Below, piece by piece: positions 50,577 through 58,017 of a stretch of 64,000 bases of DNA. The stretch is from Desulfolutivibrio sulfodismutans DSM 3696 (GTDB taxonomy: Bacteria > Desulfobacterota > Desulfovibrionia > Desulfovibrionales > Desulfovibrionaceae). The DNA lies in contig NZ_CP045504.1 of assembly GCF_013376455.1 (NCBI RefSeq), positions 1,405,501 through 1,469,500 of the forward strand, written 5' to 3'. Within the stretch, counting starts at the first letter, position 1, and the number at the start of each line of letters is the position of its first letter. A program made the position numbers and the translations under genes. The notes beneath the pieces were generated by a model. It was not told the DNA's origin and did not search any database. It was given only the letters and a program-made list of their open reading frames with translations.

Positions 50577-51407
50577 ATGCAAAATCCATCAGATGTAAAG
50601 CGCGCGTCGCGCCATGTGGCCAGCCTTCTGCACGCGCCGGAAAAAAACGCCGTCGGGATGATCTTGGGCACCGGCCTGGGAGGGCTGACGGATCGCCTGC
50701 AGCACCCCGTCTCCGTTGACTATGGCGATATTCCGGAGTTCCCCCGGGCCACGGTGGAGGGGCATCGGGGCCGCTTGGTGCGTGGCCGTCTGGCCGGGAG
50801 GGACGTGTTTTTGCTGAGCGGCCGCTTCCACCTCTACGAGGGCTATTCCCCGGCCATGGTGTGCATGGGCGTGCGCCTGCTTGGCGAGATGGGCATATCC
50901 CGGCTCATTGTGAGCAACGCCGCCGGGGGGCTCAATCCCCGGTTCGAGACCGGCTCGCTCATGGCCATCACCGACCATGTCAATCTGACCGGAAAAAGCC
51001 CTCTCACCGGGGAAAACCACGCCCCCTGGGGGCCGCGCTTCCCGGACATGTCCCGGGTCTATTCCCCGCGCCTGCTGGATATTGCCCGGCAATGCGCCCT
51101 GTCCTCGAGCGTCCGCCTGGAACAGGGGGTCTACGCCGGAGTGACCGGCCCGCAAATGGAAACCCCGGCCGAGACCCGCATGCTGCGCCTGCTCGGGGCC
51201 GACGCCGTGGGCATGTCCACGGTGCTCGAGGTCGTGGCCGCCCGGCATATGGGCATGGAGATCCTGGGGCTGTCCTGCATAACCAACGTGAACCTGCCGG
51301 ACAGTATGGTCGAAACGAGCCTTGCCGACGTGTTGGCGGCGGCGGGAAAGGCCGAAGGACGCCTCAGCGCCCTGGTCACGGCCATCCTGGGCGATCCGGC
51401 GTTCTAA
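50577..51407 (+). CDS. Purine nucleoside phosphorylase
   Basis: The 276-residue trimeric-type PNP cleaves inosine and guanosine with phosphate. Visible motifs: VGMILGTGLGGLTDRL at the phosphate site, GHRGRLVRG, LIVSNAAGGLNPRF, TGPQMETPAETRML and the late VEVVAARH-type VLEVVAARHMG with CITN. It is divergent from motA and convergent with the PqqD-like gene; the two stop codons overlap by 3 to 4 bases (CTAA). The upstream 217-base gap shows no clear promoter. Confidence 0.93.
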   Translation: MQNPSDVKRASRHVASLLHAPEKNAVGMILGTGLGGLTDRLQHPVSVDYGDIPEFPRATVEGHRGRLVRGRLAGRDVFLLSGRFHLYEGYSPAMVCMGVRLLGEMGISRLIVSNAAGGLNPRFETGSLMAITDHVNLTGKSPLTGENHAPWGPRFPDMSRVYSPRLLDIARQCALSSSVRLEQGVYAGVTGPQMETPAETRMLRLLGADAVGMSTVLEVVAARHMGMEILGLSCITNVNLPDSMVETSLADVLAAAGKAEGRLSALVTAILGDPAF

Positions 51408-51814
51408 CCTCGCAATGTTTCCGGCGCCTGAAACCCCACCAGCCCCCGGCGGCCAAGCTCCCGGAAAAACGAGGCCACACTGATCTCGGCCTCGCGTGCG
51501 CCCAATCCGTACCGCCCGGCAAAGATCTCGGACACCTGGCGCACGCTGCGCACCCCATCCGCCAAGTCCCAGGTCGCGGCCCCCAGTTCGTCGAGTTCAA
51601 TGGTCTTGTCCGAGGGCTTGCCGTCCCACACCCCGAATTGCCTGAGCATTCCGGAGAACGCGGGGCGCACGGTCACCGGATAGGTCAGCCGGACCTTCCC
51701 GGTCTCCGTGGTTTCCTGGCGCACGGCGGCATTTTTCACCGGGACGAAGGACAAGGCCTCCTCCCGGGACAACCCGCCCTCCCCGGCCGCTCTTTTTTTT
51801 CTAAAAAACCCCAT
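51404..51814 (-). CDS. PqqD-like protein (RRE fold)
   Basis: The 136-residue protein ends in a clear PqqD domain: IELDELGAATWDLADGVRSV, then VSEIFAGRYGL and FFRELGRRGLVGF. That winged fold binds peptides in RiPP and PQQ pathways. The first 45 residues are an extra basic N-terminus (MGFFRKKRAAG). It overlaps the end of the preceding gene by 14 bases. No PQQ or radical-SAM gene is nearby, so its partner peptide is unknown. Confidence 0.8.
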   Translation of the reverse strand: MGFFRKKRAAGEGGLSREEALSFVPVKNAAVRQETTETGKVRLTYPVTVRPAFSGMLRQFGVWDGKPSDKTIELDELGAATWDLADGVRSVRQVSEIFAGRYGLGAREAEISVASFFRELGRRGLVGFQAPETLRG

Positions 51815-52727
51815 ATTCTGCGCACACCTTCTCAAATTCCCCGGCATCCGCCGGGACCACCCCGCACCACACCACGGCCGCCAGCTTGTTGGCGGCCTCC
51901 TCGCGCCAAACCAGTACCCGGGCCTGCCGCCGCCTGCGAAAAAACCGCAGGATCCCGTCCACGGCCGCGCCAAACGGGCCTTTGGAGGGGGCGGTGGCCG
52001 CCAGGGCCGCCTCGCGCAACCGCCACCGCGTCGGCGCAAACGCAAGCTGCACACCGGGAACGCTCAGTTGCCTCCCGGCAAAGTCCGCCACGTCCCCCCC
52101 GGCCAAAAGCACGTCCGCCGGGGCGAACCGGGCATAGCCCAGGGTACGGCCCGGGCCGGAAAACTCCAGATCGAACCGGCCGGGCAGAAACGAAAACCGG
52201 GTCAGCCCCATCCCTTCCGGCGGCGTCAGCCGGATGCCGTACAGTTCAAAGGACGCCCCCTCCCGGCCATGATCCCTGATCGAGGCCAGAACCTCCCGGG
52301 CCACGGCCCCGCCATCCCCTTCCCCGGCCGGAAAAAACCGCACCACCATCAGGGCCCCACAGGTCCGGCACAGGCTGGCCACCCCGCGCGAGACCGGCGT
52401 CCCGGCGCAGGAAAATCCCGCATTTTCGCGGCCGGACAAGGCCGCCAGCCAGTCGCCGGGAATGGATTTGTCCGAGACCTCCACGGCCACGGCGCTTTTT
52501 TTCAGCATGCGCCGCACCACCTCCACAGGGGCCGCCTTTCCCGCATTCCGGGTGAAGCGGACCTCCATCACCGGGCCGTCCGGCGATTCCAGGCCCAGAT
52601 AGTCCCGACCCAGGCGGGCAGGCTCCCAGCCCTGCGGGACGCGCAGGCGCAGGCCGTTCCAGGCCAGGGGACGAAACGCCGCCCCGGCCCGATCTGCATG
52701 GTCGGATCGGATTTCGGCTCGGGTCAT
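51801..52727 (-). CDS. Unknown protein with an internal repeat, between kinase and PqqD-like genes
   Basis: I do not recognise this 308-residue protein. Two regions look alike: WNGLRLRVPQGWEPARL...VMEVRF near residue 23 and LYGIRLTPPEGMGLTRF...YARF near 162, so it may hold two copies of a beta-rich domain. A CxxC pair (LCRTCG) lies near residue 118. There is no signal or TM helix. Its ATG overlaps the kinase stop codon by 4 bases and it lacks a ribosome site, so it depends on kinase translation. Confidence 0.6.
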   Translation of the reverse strand: MTRAEIRSDHADRAGAAFRPLAWNGLRLRVPQGWEPARLGRDYLGLESPDGPVMEVRFTRNAGKAAPVEVVRRMLKKSAVAVEVSDKSIPGDWLAALSGRENAGFSCAGTPVSRGVASLCRTCGALMVVRFFPAGEGDGGAVAREVLASIRDHGREGASFELYGIRLTPPEGMGLTRFSFLPGRFDLEFSGPGRTLGYARFAPADVLLAGGDVADFAGRQLSVPGVQLAFAPTRWRLREAALAATAPSKGPFGAAVDGILRFFRRRRQARVLVWREEAANKLAAVVWCGVVPADAGEFEKVCAEYGVF

Positions 52728-54283
52728 GGAGTGGGGGTATGCAGGGACGCTTCCAGACCGTCGTCGTCCCCGCCCGGCAGCCCCGGATGCTCCCCGGGCC
52801 CGCCCGGGGGGGACTGTATGGCCGTGGACGCGGGCCGGGGCGGTTCGGGTTCCTTGGGCAGAATGAAATAAAAATTGTTGCCGTGGGGGGTGGGCTCATA
52901 ACCTTCGATACCGCCGTGCAGCCTGACCACCTCCCGGATAAAATACAGCCCGTGCCCGGTGCCGTATTCTCCCTTGGCATTGTCGGCCCGGTAACCCTCC
53001 TCGAACAGGCGCACGGCCACCTCCTTGTCCATGGGCGGCCCGGAACTGAACACGTTGAGCTTGATGCCGTCGCGGCCGGGGCCGAAGAAATCCCGCATGA
53101 CCTCCCAGCCATACGACATGAACTTGCGGGTCCGCCCGGCGCCGGGATCAGGCACCTCGCGGGCATATTTCACCACGTTTGAGAAAAGATTGGCATAGAC
53201 TTGGCTTATAAGGCCCACATCGGCCACAGCCTCGATCTCGGCGTCAGGCACTCCGCCCAAAGAGGTGTCGATCTCGATGCCGCGTTCGAGAAGGCGCGGC
53301 CGATACCGCTCCAGTTGGGGATCGATGACCTTGGTTTTGAAGTTGCACATCCGCTTATCCAGGACATAGCGCCCTTCTTCAAAATGACTCCGGCGCAAAA
53401 GGGTCTCCAGGAAAAGGCTGGTATGCATGTAGTGGCTGAAAATCTGCTTGTACTGGTCGGCCATTCCATCCCGAATATATCCGATATCCTTGAGAAGCGT
53501 CTCCCCGTCTTCCGCCAGGTCGCCAAGGCGGTCTCCGGCCTTGCGTAAAAAACGCTCCAATTTGCGCTCGTAGATGTCCAAAAGATCTATCTTCGAATGA
53601 AGCCGCTTATAATAGAGCTTGAAATAAATATTCGGAACAATGACGTTATGCCCGATATCTTTCACCAAGCTACGGATGAACTGCACATGCTCCTTGTTTT
53701 TGTTGTTGATGAGGCGATTGTGCAGTTGGTAGCCGAACCGGTTGGCGTAGCGTTCGAAATAGAGCCGGTCGTGCTCGGTGAGCTTGTCGGCCGGATGCAC
53801 GCACAACACGCCGATGATGTCGCCGTGGGGCGTGAAGGGAAGCTGGCTGATCAATTCGTGGTTGCCTTTGATGGGCAAAAAGAAATGATTTTCGGAGACC
53901 AGGGGTTTTTCGGGAAATATGGGCTCGGGCGACTCGGCCAGGGGCGAGGTCAGGCAACGGTAGGCACAGCGCTTGAGGATGCCGTCCTTGCTGTCCAGAA
54001 GATACAGGTCGCACTCGACATCGAAAAACATGCGCGGAATGAGCAGGCAGATGGCGTAGAGATCCTCCAATTCGGGGAACTCCTGGGCCAGATCGAAAAA
54101 GACGTTCAAGGAGATGCTTTGGTGCGAGGTAAAGCCGTAGGAATCGTAGTCGTCCATCTTGCGATGGATGCGCTTGGCCACGTTCTCGAGCCGGGCGCGT
54201 TCGATGATGAAGGCGTCCGTGGGCAGACCGGAAGGTGACTCCGGGGCCGACAGGGGCCGTTTGTCGTCCTCTGACATAGGCAT
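52724..54283 (-). CDS. Cytoplasmic sensor histidine kinase with GAF-like input
   Basis: The 519-residue protein has an N-terminal GAF-like region (about 50-190), an atypical H-box (LVKDIGHNVIVPNIYF near residue 213), a long helical stretch, and a C-terminal ATPase domain. The ATPase shows the N-box VYANLFSNVVKYA near 365 and G-box YGTGHGLYFIREVVRLHGG near 460. A Pro/Gly tail follows. No membrane segment is seen. No response regulator is adjacent; the next two genes overlap or nearly overlap it, so all three form one unit. The ATG at 54283 has only a weak ribosome site. Confidence 0.75.
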   Translation of the reverse strand: MPMSEDDKRPLSAPESPSGLPTDAFIIERARLENVAKRIHRKMDDYDSYGFTSHQSISLNVFFDLAQEFPELEDLYAICLLIPRMFFDVECDLYLLDSKDGILKRCAYRCLTSPLAESPEPIFPEKPLVSENHFFLPIKGNHELISQLPFTPHGDIIGVLCVHPADKLTEHDRLYFERYANRFGYQLHNRLINNKNKEHVQFIRSLVKDIGHNVIVPNIYFKLYYKRLHSKIDLLDIYERKLERFLRKAGDRLGDLAEDGETLLKDIGYIRDGMADQYKQIFSHYMHTSLFLETLLRRSHFEEGRYVLDKRMCNFKTKVIDPQLERYRPRLLERGIEIDTSLGGVPDAEIEAVADVGLISQVYANLFSNVVKYAREVPDPGAGRTRKFMSYGWEVMRDFFGPGRDGIKLNVFSSGPPMDKEVAVRLFEEGYRADNAKGEYGTGHGLYFIREVVRLHGGIEGYEPTPHGNNFYFILPKEPEPPRPASTAIQSPPGGPGEHPGLPGGDDDGLEASLHTPTP

Positions 54284-54393: not shown

Positions 54394-55098
54394 TCAGGCG
54401 TCCAGGCCGATCTCCACCCGTCCGGGGGCAAAGCCTTTGAGTTGGGCCAGCATGGCCTTGATTCCGGCCGCGAGGATGCGTTCCACAAAGGGATTCATGG
54501 CCAGTGGAACGCCGCCTACGGTGACGCGCATGGCCTCGCGCACGGCCTGACAGTCAGCCGGGGTCGCCTTCCCGTCCACGATCCGGGCGGCCATGTCTGC
54601 ACAGCAGGACTCTCCGCAGGCCCCGCAATCGAGGCCCGGCAGCAAAAACCCCCTGGACAGGGCCAGATCGGCCACTGCCTCCACGTCGCGCAGATGCGGC
54701 AGCCCTGGCGCGTCCACCTCGCCGAACGCGGCCAGGGCCAGTCCGGGCTGCAAGGCGGCGGCCTCGGAGGGATCGCGCAGCACCAGCACGCGGGGCAAAA
54801 AGGCCAGCTCCTTGCCGCCCTCGACCACCAGGACATCGGCCTCGAGCAGGGGCAGGACATCGTGCAAAAACCTCGGGCCGCTCCAGAAAACCGCGCACTC
54901 GGCCGGGGTGAAGGCGGCCACGGCCCGACAGTGGGCGGCCAGCCGGTCGGTATCCGTATCGGCCTTGTCCAGAGAGGGATTGTGGGTGAACTTGGCGGCG
55001 GACACGGCAAGCCCCCGGGCTTTGAGCGCCGCACAAAGTTCCAGAGCCAGTGAGGTTTTCCCGGATTTTTTATATCCGACGATCTGTATGGCTTTCAT
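54394..55098 (-). CDS. MobB-like GTP-binding protein with a C-terminal cysteine motif
   Basis: The 234-residue protein starts like MobB with a P-loop (QIVGYKKSGKTSLALELC). MobB helps attach guanine nucleotides to molybdopterin. Near residue 165 it adds DCGACGESCCADMAA followed by ADCQ, a pattern that could bind an iron-sulfur cluster and that ordinary MobB lacks. The ATG at 55098 overlaps the tupC stop codon. Its place after the tungstate importer suggests a role in W/Mo cofactor assembly. Confidence 0.8.
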   Translation of the reverse strand: MKAIQIVGYKKSGKTSLALELCAALKARGLAVSAAKFTHNPSLDKADTDTDRLAAHCRAVAAFTPAECAVFWSGPRFLHDVLPLLEADVLVVEGGKELAFLPRVLVLRDPSEAAALQPGLALAAFGEVDAPGLPHLRDVEAVADLALSRGFLLPGLDCGACGESCCADMAARIVDGKATPADCQAVREAMRVTVGGVPLAMNPFVERILAAGIKAMLAQLKGFAPGRVEIGLDA

Positions 55099-55814
55099 GG
55101 CATGGCTCCGTGTGACGCCTTTTTTGCAGGACATTGGGGATGTGGGGAGGGCATTTCAACAATGGTGTCGGTGATACGGCCGTTTTCCATGGCCAGCACG
55201 GCGTCGCTGATCTCGGTGAGCCAGTCGATGTCGTGGCTGACCACCACCAGGCTGGTTCCCAGGCGATCCCGGGCGTCCAGGGCGGCCTTGCGCACGAGGT
55301 CGGCGGAGACGGTGTCCAGGCTGGCCGTGGGTTCGTCGAGCAAAAGGACCGTGGGCTCGAAGGCCAGCCTGGAGGCCAGGGCCACGCGCTGGGCCTCGCC
55401 GCCTGAAAGCTCATGCCGGGCTCGGTCGGCGAAACGGGCCGGATCGAGGCCCACGGCGGCCAGGGCCTGGTCGGTTTTTTCCCGGATGTTCCCGGCCCCG
55501 CGCACCTTGAGGCCGTAGGCCACGTTGCCGCGCACGCTGCGACGCAGCAGATAGGGACTTTGGACCAGAAGCGTCACCCGCCGCCGCAGCTCCCTTTCCC
55601 GGCCAAGACTCGGTCGCCCCTGGAAAAACACCTCGCCTCCAGCCGGGCGGTCGAGAAAGGCCAGGATGCGCAACAGCGTGGTCTTGCCGCTGCCGTTGGG
55701 ACCGGTGATCCCCACGATGGCCCCGGCGGGGATATCCAGGGTGGGAACATCCAGGACGACGCGGCCGCCATGGGTCTGGGTCACGTCTTGCAGATGATAG
55801 AGCGGCGCGTTCAT
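55095..55814 (-). CDS. tupC: Tungstate ABC transporter ATP-binding protein
   Basis: The 239-residue ATPase has Walker A GPNGSGKTTLLRI near residue 36, Q-loop LLVQSPYLL, signature ELSGGEAQRVALASRL and Walker B VLLLDEPTASLD. It pairs with the permease just upstream, whose stop codon it overlaps by 4 bases (ATGA). The long frame to 56060 is the antisense-phase shadow of the permease. The order and TupA/TupB motifs around it favour tungstate over molybdate. Confidence 0.9.
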   Translation of the reverse strand: MNAPLYHLQDVTQTHGGRVVLDVPTLDIPAGAIVGITGPNGSGKTTLLRILAFLDRPAGGEVFFQGRPSLGRERELRRRVTLLVQSPYLLRRSVRGNVAYGLKVRGAGNIREKTDQALAAVGLDPARFADRARHELSGGEAQRVALASRLAFEPTVLLLDEPTASLDTVSADLVRKAALDARDRLGTSLVVVSHDIDWLTEISDAVLAMENGRITDTIVEMPSPHPQCPAKKASHGAMP

Positions 55815-56506
55815 TTTTCCGAGATTCTCCGGAAGGCGGACACGGCGATGTTGACGGCAAAGGCCACGACCATGAGCACCAGCCCCAGGGCGATGCCCAT
55901 GGCGAATTCCCCCTTGGAGGTCTCCAGGGCGATGGCCGTGGTGATGGTGCGGGTGTGCCACTTGATGTTGCCGCCCACGATCATGGCGATGCCCACCTCG
56001 GAGACCACGCGGCCGAAGGCGGCCATGGCCGCGAGCATGATGCCGAAACGGGTTTCCCACAGGGTGGTCGCCACCACCTGCCAGGGGGACGCGCCCAGGG
56101 TCAGGAGGGTGGGCCTTAGCCGGGCGTCCAGATTTTCCACGGCCGAGGCGGTGAGCGCGACGATGATGGGCAGCCCCAGAATGGTCAGGCCGATGACCAT
56201 GCCCGTCACGGAATATAAAAGGCCCATTTCGCCCAGGGGCCCGCGCCTGGAGATGAAGGCGTAGACCAAAAGGCCGATGACCACGGTGGGGAAGGACAGC
56301 ATGCTGTCCACGAAGGTCCGGGCGGCGCGCTTGCCCGGGAACGTGGCATATCCGAGCAGGAACCCGGGCACGACGCCAAGCCCCAGGGACGCGGCGATGG
56401 CCAGAAGCGAGGTGATCGCCGTGACCTGTATGGCGGAAAAGGTCTGGGGATCGCCGGAGACAAGCAAGACAAGGGCCTGCCGCAACCCGTCAAGAATATA
56501 CTCCAC
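55811..56506 (-). CDS. tupB: Tungstate ABC transporter permease
   Basis: The 231-residue protein has about five membrane helices and the binding-protein-dependent permease motif LTLGASPWQVVATTLWETRFGI near residue 135. Its MLSFPTVVIGLLVYAFISRRGPLG is characteristic of TupB/WtpB-type permeases. It is separated from tupA by 299 bases that carry a purine-rich tract and a palindromic repeat. Confidence 0.92.
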   Translation of the reverse strand: MEYILDGLRQALVLLVSGDPQTFSAIQVTAITSLLAIAASLGLGVVPGFLLGYATFPGKRAARTFVDSMLSFPTVVIGLLVYAFISRRGPLGEMGLLYSVTGMVIGLTILGLPIIVALTASAVENLDARLRPTLLTLGASPWQVVATTLWETRFGIMLAAMAAFGRVVSEVGIAMIVGGNIKWHTRTITTAIALETSKGEFAMGIALGLVLMVVAFAVNIAVSAFRRISEK

Positions 56507-56513
56507 CCGCCCT

Positions 56514-56700
56514 CCTTCCGTCCGCCCGTCTGCTCACCCTTCCTGCCCCGCCATACCGGCCGCCCCGCCTGCCCTTCTTTCCCAGTCGTCCCGCGTCTCC
56601 GCCTGCCCTGCCCTTCCGGTCGTCTCCTCTGCCTTCGCTTGCCCCGCCCTTCCCCCCTCCCCTCTCCACTTTCCCCTTCCCATCCCCGCCGTTCCGGTAG
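56514..56700 (-). other. Purine-rich tract in the tupA-tupB gap
   Basis: On the minus strand (the sense strand of the tup genes) this tract is almost all G and A, with several runs of four to six G between about 56642 and 56690. It could form a G-quadruplex in the mRNA. No gene is visible here. Confidence 0.6.
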
Positions 56701-56707
56701 TGGCCGG

Positions 56708-56795
56708 GGCGGCAAAGCCGCCACGGCCGCGACCGGGGACGGGGGGTCCGGGGGGACAGGCGTCCCCCCAGGCGGGGAACGGGGCGGCAGCCCCG
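56708..56795 (-). repeat. Three-part palindromic repeat, copy C
   Basis: It holds a small hairpin ggcggc-aaa-gccgcc (56708-56722), a core gggggg-tcc-gggggg-acaggcg-tcccccc (56741-56769), and a closing hairpin cggggc-ggca-gccccg (56780-56795). The layout and the ggggggtccgggggg core match copies A and B. It lies 10 bases after the tupA stop codon on the minus strand, as copy B lies after the exporter. Confidence 0.7.
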
Positions 56796-56805
56796 CTGCA
56801 GCCGT

Positions 56806-57627
56806 CTACTTTTTGGCGTTGGGGGTAAACAGCTGTTTGCCGTCGGATTTGAAATCGGCGACGACCTGTTGTCCTTTGGGCGAGGCCAGCCAGTCGTTGA
56901 AGGCCTTGGCCAGATTGACCTTGGCATTTTTGCATTTCTCGGGATTGATGACAATGACGCTGTACTGGTTGAGCAGGGGCTTGTCGCCTTCGACGAGAAC
57001 GGCCAGGGCCGGATCGCCCTTGGCCTCGTAGGTGAAAAAGGTGGCCCGGTCGGTGAGGGTATAACCGCTGCGTTCGGCGGCCATAACGATGGTGGCCATC
57101 ATGCCTTGTCCGGCCTGAACGTACCAGGTTTCCTTGTCCGGCGCAGCCATGTCGGCGGCCTTCCACAGGGCGAGCTCCATCTTGTGGGTGCCGGAATCGT
57201 CGCCCCGGCTGATGAAGGGGGATTTGGCGGCGGCGATGGCCCTTAAGGCTTCGGAGGTGGTTTTGCCCTTGACCTTGGCCGGGTCGTTTTTGGGTCCGAG
57301 CAGGACGAAGTCGTTGAACATGACTTCGGTGCGGCCCAGGCCGTGTCCAGCCTCGACGAATTCCTTTTCGGCCTTGGGGGCATGGACCAACAGCACATCC
57401 ACATCGCAGTTTTTCCCCAGTTCCAGGGCCTTGCCGGTCCCCACGGCGAGCCAGCGCAATTCGATGCCGGTGTCCTTTTTGAATGCCTGTTCCAGGACAG
57501 GCAAGAGCCCGGTGTTGTCGGTGCTGGTGGTGGTGGCCATCATGAGCACCTTTTCCTCGGCCTGGGCGGCGCCGATTCCGGCGCACAGGATCATGGCTGC
57601 GGCGATGAGGGTGGCGATGTGTTTCAT
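56806..57627 (-). CDS. tupA: Tungstate-binding periplasmic protein
   Basis: The 273-residue protein has a signal peptide (MKHIATLIAAAMILCAGIGA) and the TupA oxyanion motif TTTSTDNTGLLPVLEQAF, then VDVLLVHAPKAE, SRGDDSGTHKMEL and QNQ-like NQYSVIVINP. TupA binds tungstate very tightly for import, needed here for W-dependent formate dehydrogenase or aldehyde oxidoreductase. The ATG at 57627 follows aggagaatgcc. It is the first gene of tupABC-mobB. Confidence 0.93.
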   Translation of the reverse strand: MKHIATLIAAAMILCAGIGAAQAEEKVLMMATTTSTDNTGLLPVLEQAFKKDTGIELRWLAVGTGKALELGKNCDVDVLLVHAPKAEKEFVEAGHGLGRTEVMFNDFVLLGPKNDPAKVKGKTTSEALRAIAAAKSPFISRGDDSGTHKMELALWKAADMAAPDKETWYVQAGQGMMATIVMAAERSGYTLTDRATFFTYEAKGDPALAVLVEGDKPLLNQYSVIVINPEKCKNAKVNLAKAFNDWLASPKGQQVVADFKSDGKQLFTPNAKK

Positions 57628-57803
57628 GGCATTCTCCTCCTTAGGGTTTCGATTACATAATTTTTCGTGACACAAAAGAACGTTTTTCGCAACCTCCGTC
57701 CCTTTGGAACCCTGGGGATCAGGCAGGGCCTGTCCTGTCGCCTGTCCGGATTCGTTGTGATCCCGTCGAGGGACCGGGGAAAATATTATTTTCACTTTCG
57801 GGC

Positions 57804-57830
57804 TAAAGGAATCGGTGAAACCTCCGATGA
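57804..57830 (+). promoter_or_regulatory. Sigma-28-like promoter, distal copy
   Basis: taaaggaa (57804-57811), 11 bases, then tccgatga (57823-57830) fits the flagellar sigma-28 consensus (taaagttt-N11-gccgataa) with 5 of 8 and 6 of 8 matches. It is about 440 bases upstream of the flagellin start. It and its surroundings resemble the proximal promoter at 58018-58044. Between 57628 and 57803 I see only A/T-rich tupA upstream sequence. Confidence 0.5.
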
Positions 57831-58017
57831 GAGCAGCGGGCAAGGTGAAACTCAAAAATGTATGCATATCTAGTTTTGTGCAAATTATTTCACTCTTGTA
57901 ACACAATGCACAACGAAACGCACATCGATATTTTCTGTATAAATCATCCCACATCCTCTTGAATCCTGACAATCCCTCTCTTTCTCAAAAAAAACATCAT
58001 TATTTCCATTTTCCACC

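Follow-up and report, generated by a model that had tools for sequence, protein, structure and literature searches.

A PqqD-like protein and a predicted tandem PsbP/Mog1-like partner form a conserved pair that appears to belong to a co-inherited envelope system

Do three overlapping genes, for an atypical histidine kinase (P0001), a 308-residue protein with an apparent internal duplication (P0002) and a PqqD-like protein (P0003), make up one functional module, and if not, which of them belong together and with what? The genes lie in a stretch of 64,000 nucleotides (hereafter the window) from a 4.44 Mb genome whose relatives are Desulfovibrionaceae. A preliminary description of the window had noted overlaps of 4 and 14 nt between the genes, which are indeed present (Table 1), and had proposed a signalling module built from all three. 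Among the flanking genes, the name TupA was given on the basis of a TTSTDNTGLL motif, and beyond the purine nucleoside phosphorylase gene are genes for PilZ, MotB, MotA and biotin carboxylase.

Table 1. Features of the locus (window positions) and of associated loci elsewhere in the same genome (positions prefixed C1)
Feature	Position	Strand	Remark
Purine nucleoside phosphorylase gene, convergent with P0003	50577..51407	+	Pfam PNP_UDP_1, 4e-52
P0003, PqqD/RRE-like protein, 136 aa	51404..51814	-	Open reading frame; core of the finding
P0002 stop / P0003 start overlap, 14 nt	51801..51814	-	Equal or similar negative spacing across genera
P0002, predicted tandem PsbP/Mog1-like protein, 308 aa	51801..52727	-	Open reading frame; core of the finding
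P0001 stop / P0002 start overlap, 4 nt (ATGA)	52724..52727	-	Limited to 3 genomes of the window's genus
P0001, atypical histidine kinase, 519 aa	52724..54283	-	Open reading frame, placed as in the preliminary description
MobB-like gene, upstream of kinase P0001	54394..55134	-	Pfam MobB, 3.7e-11
Tungstate-type ABC importer tupC-tupB-tupA, upstream of the kinase	55095..57972	-	Pfam ABC_tran, BPD_transp_1, PBP_like_2
c5 cluster	C1:740892-751737		715 kb from the window locus; 5TMR-LYT/SpoIIE phosphatase directly after c5
ABC exporter	C1:3737539-3740028		Third separate locus

Profile searches across 247 genomes of the order, with orthology assigned by score thresholds, find the P0002 family (profile A1) in 104 genomes from 20 genera and the P0003 family (profile A2) in 93 genomes from 17 genera, all 93 of which also encode P0002. 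The two genes are neighbours in 91 of these 93 (the exceptions are G181 and G026). Read at the level of single bases, 26 of 27 neighbouring pairs from many genera show negative spacing, most often of 14 nt. Because this spacing recurs so regularly the junction is not a matter of chance, and translational coupling of P0002 and P0003, first suggested for the window alone, extends across genera.

PqqD-like proteins serve as beacons for peptide natural products, and PqqD-type domains bind peptide segments. P0003 was correctly recognized as PqqD-like from the start: it matches PF05402 (7.5e-8, 33 bits versus a curated cut-off of 23.4), and its best profile matches include the lasso PqqD chaperone 9x90 (7.9e-7) and PqqD 3g2b (2.2e-4), so that by profile match it is a member of the PqqD/RRE superfamily. 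Residues conserved in its family are those of the PqqD core. Like PqqD, lasso B1 and ScmD, which are discrete RRE proteins of this family, it is small and stands alone, and its sequence indicates a C-terminal PqqD fold. It differs from them in having an N-terminal part, an insertion of about 20 residues (KPWF...WDGxP) ahead of the LELDxxG core (family alignment A2) and a fixed partner, P0002; moreover, no precursor or RiPP enzyme was found for it, and it scores far under every NCBIfam cut-off (e.g. 14.1 bits versus 46 for the PQQ biosynthesis PqqD equivalog, TIGR03859). The HPr-rel-A system (HprK-related kinase A plus PqqD_rel_X) likewise pairs a kinase gene with a PqqD-family neighbour, but the kinase adjoining P0002-P0003 is a GHKL histidine kinase. 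Membership in that system was rejected, as the best HprK_rel_A match in the window's genome reaches 34.2 bits against a cut-off of 200.

P0002 has no family match above cut-off. Its AlphaFold2 model (pLDDT 85, pTM 0.80), used as a Foldseek query (model m41bc5405e042), retrieves PsbP 4rth (1.7e-5), Mog1 1jhs (8e-3), and PA94 1tu1 and EagT6 6xrf (about 1e-2); each match is partial, spanning about half of the chain, and places the model in the PsbP/Mog1/EagT6 fold at superfamily level only. The order of strands and helices repeats twice in the predicted fold. A tandem duplication is supported by this repeated topology together with the half-chain matches, and the internal duplication previously suspected from sequence is better seen in the model than in an alignment of the two halves by hhalign, where the signal is weak (E=0.011). 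The prediction for P0002 is thus a tandem PsbP/Mog1-like protein. EagT6-type proteins bind T6SS effectors at the effectors' transmembrane segments (PMC7773334). P0002 has its predicted fold in common with the EagT6/EagR (DUF1795) T6SS chaperones and with PsbP/Mog1, and its tandem arrangement resembles the two-fold symmetric Eag dimer. Unlike the Eag chaperones, it has no T6SS link and no DUF1795 sequence match (0 of 29 family members), its best fold match is PsbP, and its partner is PqqD-like. Neither P0002 nor P0003 has a signal peptide evident by eye, and both are for that reason probably cytosolic. P0002-family members also occur without P0003, c5 (see below) or the exporter, in other contexts (loci L058, L060, L063, L065 and L068), which we read as another use to which this tandem protein is put. 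A plasmid search returned no P0002 copy.

In many genera, the neighbourhoods read place P0002-P0003 after a cluster encoding an FtsX permease, an ABC ATPase, an M28-peptidase-FtsX protein (~1630 aa), a DUF6785-DUF6784 protein and c5, and/or after genes for an RsbW-like kinase, a STAS protein, a SpoIIE phosphatase and the small protein c2, whose N-terminus resembles a signal peptide. In several genera the pair comes directly after c5. This c5 is a polytopic membrane protein of ~650 aa belonging to no Pfam or NCBIfam family (L080:8011-9960; C1:741011-742960 in the window's genome), with identity of about 80% across genomes of the order and 70-84% across a phylum sample. The distance between P0003 and c5 is at most 30 kb in 47 genomes and at most 5 kb in 23 of these.

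Distribution ties the pair to this cluster even where the genes are far apart, as in the window's genome, where the parts are spread over three separate loci. Within the order, P0003 is present if and only if an 840-aa ABC exporter is present (exactly the same 93 of 247 genomes; Fisher 1.7e-70) and, nearly so, if and only if c5 is (c5 in 93 of 247, with 92 of 94 genomes in common; Fisher 2.4e-66), where both Fisher values ignore shared ancestry, are inflated by it and carry no correction for relatedness. The match with c5 fails only in G006, which has P0003 but no c5 and is assembled in 140 contigs, and in G228. Jaccard indices with P0003 are 1.00 for the exporter, 0.98 for c5, 0.89 for P0002 and 0.56 for the kinase. 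Presence and absence switch jointly inside mixed genera: g22 (7 with, 2 without), g37 (1 and 1), g55 and g48. Across the wider phylum, 10 of 297 sampled genomes encode a full-length P0003 orthologue (E<=1e-34; the generic PqqD background does no better than 6e-11), and all 10 bear c5. On these distributions, membership of P0002-P0003 in a co-inherited envelope system is well supported.

LolCDE/MacB-type FtsX ABC systems resemble the c5 cluster in combining an ABC ATPase with FtsX-type permeases, of which the cluster has two, but here a large M28-peptidase-like region is part of one of the permeases, and the DUF6785-DUF6784 protein and c5 are obligatory. Sequence searches of the PDB gave nothing significant for c5 or DUF6785, and the two are unrelated to each other by BLASTP; an AlphaFold2 model of c5 built from 18 sequences reached a pLDDT of 38. 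A cNMP-binding protein gene follows the exporter in 8 of 9 loci read. The literature search turned up no paper with DUF6785 or DUF6784 and none linking PqqD to the c5 system; description elsewhere is possible, and the transport system with c5 is apparently undescribed. A defence role was considered and rejected, as PADLOC gives no match for P0001-P0003 or c5, and its matches to the exporter and FtsX proteins are to generic ATPase and LolE regions. Two further features were seen. The exporter (L136:9446-12545, the copy of the window's genome) has a long insertion within its ATPase domain. In several genera, genes for a glycosyltransferase, a DUF2334 protein and a histidine-phosphatase-like protein stand ahead of the c5 cluster (L070:9969-18088), which suggests a link to surface glycan; they are absent from the c5 cluster of the window's genome.

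We infer that the pair acts as an adaptor or chaperone. It is somewhat probable, in our judgement, that P0002 and P0003 are a coupled cytosolic pair of this kind serving a separately encoded envelope transport system, which would comprise the ABC exporter with its cNMP-binding partner, the FtsX/ABC-ATPase/M28-peptidase-FtsX complex, the DUF6785-DUF6784 protein and c5. The PqqD-like fold of P0003 would grip a peptide or protein tail, the double PsbP/Mog1-like P0002 would shield or position a hydrophobic or export-bound segment, and a cargo or membrane component would thereby be delivered to the envelope machine. Since PqqD domains bind peptides and Eag proteins bind transmembrane segments, the simplest reading is that the pair recognizes a tail or a hydrophobic segment, either in the cargo or in one of the system's own components. 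Against an adaptor role stand the partial, superfamily-level fold match of P0002 and 11 of the 247 genomes, which encode P0002 and lack both P0003 and c5. The c5 machine, for its part, can exist without the pair, since among 18 c5 genomes outside the genus in the phylum sample P0002 and P0003 occur in the same seven and 11 lack both. A more specific version is tentative: the PqqD/RRE-like protein and the tandem PsbP/Mog1-like chaperone could be the cargo-recognition pair of an undescribed envelope export machine, one that lies outside RiPP pathways.

The main rival reading keeps the envelope system and changes the job of the pair, making P0002 and P0003 signalling or regulatory parts of an RsbW-like/STAS/SpoIIE partner-switching pathway that controls it. 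Genes of all three kinds adjoin P0002-P0003 in several genera, and the window's genome has its 5TMR-LYT/SpoIIE phosphatase immediately after c5. However, genera g8, g17 and g43 have the pair after c5 with no such gene between, and the partner-switch genes are often at the exporter locus instead. We regard this pathway as an unlikely home for the pair.

Less likely again is a cryptic RiPP-like peptide system, in which P0003 would present a precursor, the ABC exporter would export it and the M28 domain would trim it. P0003 is nearest to the discrete lasso- and PQQ-type chaperones, and the exporter is perfectly co-inherited with it. The authors of RRE-Finder count a PqqD-like protein close to a transporter as a sign of RiPPs (PMC7470986). 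Yet c5, DUF6785 and FtsX are, to our knowledge, not among RiPP components, and neither a modifying enzyme nor a precursor is found near P0003: the annotated neighbours have other functions, in keeping with what had been remarked for the window about PQQ and RiPP enzymes, and include no radical-SAM, YcaO, cyclase or B2 protease. The preliminary description had also raised the prospect of conserved short peptides nearby in relatives; the scan around P0002-P0003, c5 and the exporter gave no short ORF conserved across genera, only antisense and start-of-gene artefacts. It is this lack of both enzyme and conserved short ORF that makes a RiPP-like peptide improbable. P0003 represents a coherent PqqD subfamily that tracks an envelope transport system instead, which cautions against equating every PqqD-like gene with RiPP biosynthesis. 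The analysis supplies a concrete partner set for P0003, and it exposes a transport system, carried by roughly one in three of the genomes sampled from the order, whose c5 has no family name and for which no description was found in the literature searched.

The module originally proposed, one operon-encoded signalling unit in which the kinase senses and P0002 and P0003 transmit, now looks very improbable, and as a general unit it is already largely refuted. The 4-nt overlap is found in 3 of 3 genomes of the window's genus, and one further genus shows direct adjacency. But with relatives counted at E<=1e-60 in the 247 genomes, P0001 is directly beside P0002 in just four (three of the window's genus and one of genus g32), the kinase occurs without P0003 in 58 genomes, and P0003 occurs without the kinase in nine. 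By coordinates, P0001 and P0002 are 4-8 kb apart in genus g26, 15-21 kb apart in g10 and unlinked elsewhere. The kinase and the PqqD gene had both been put forward as possible constant companions of P0002, with homologues occurring widely without either as grounds to abandon the unit. The PqqD gene does accompany P0002 (93 of 104 genomes); the kinase adjoins it in four genomes against P0002's 104 of 247, and P0002 being widespread without an adjoining kinase, that part of the proposal falls. P0001 is a lineage-specific neighbour outside the conserved P0002-P0003 unit. It may be an unrelated gene that came to sit upstream in the window's genus, where it would at most lend the pair its promoter. 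A promoter/terminator scan of the locus gave no promoter signal above shuffles and did not clearly separate mobB from the kinase.

Weakest is the reading in which P0003 evolved from the PqqD fold into a winged-helix regulator that binds DNA, which we consider barely credible: HTH regulators are structurally near RREs and are known to give rise to false RRE calls (PMC7470986), but the best P0003 matches are PqqD and lasso chaperones, not regulators, and the positions conserved in P0003 belong to the PqqD core.

The kinase is of some interest in itself. P0001 has a Pfam HATPase_c match (1.3e-9) and none to HisKA, and its phospho-acceptor region reads IGHNVIVPN in place of a HELRTPL-type box; it thus lacks the HisKA domain, the H-E/D-x-x-T/N box and the G1-box D of typical HisKA two-component kinases. 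The atypical H-box, pointed out at the start, recurs as HN[VI]IVPN in all seven relatives that cover the site, together with FS[ST]G in place of DxG at the G1 box. The odd box and the missing G1-box Asp are, judging by these alignments, traits of the whole family and no local oddity. The family is present in 142 of the 247 genomes (E<=1e-60) as a single copy per genome, with relatives extending to Nitrospirota and with differing, unrelated gene contexts in other genera. Single-copy kinases of this atypical type are seen in relatives at L034, L035, L038, L039, L041 and L042. The order tupABC-mobB-kinase (54394-57972 in the window) is kept in the window's clade, with the same kinase neighbours at L154, and a link of the kinase to tungsten or molybdenum supply is possible.
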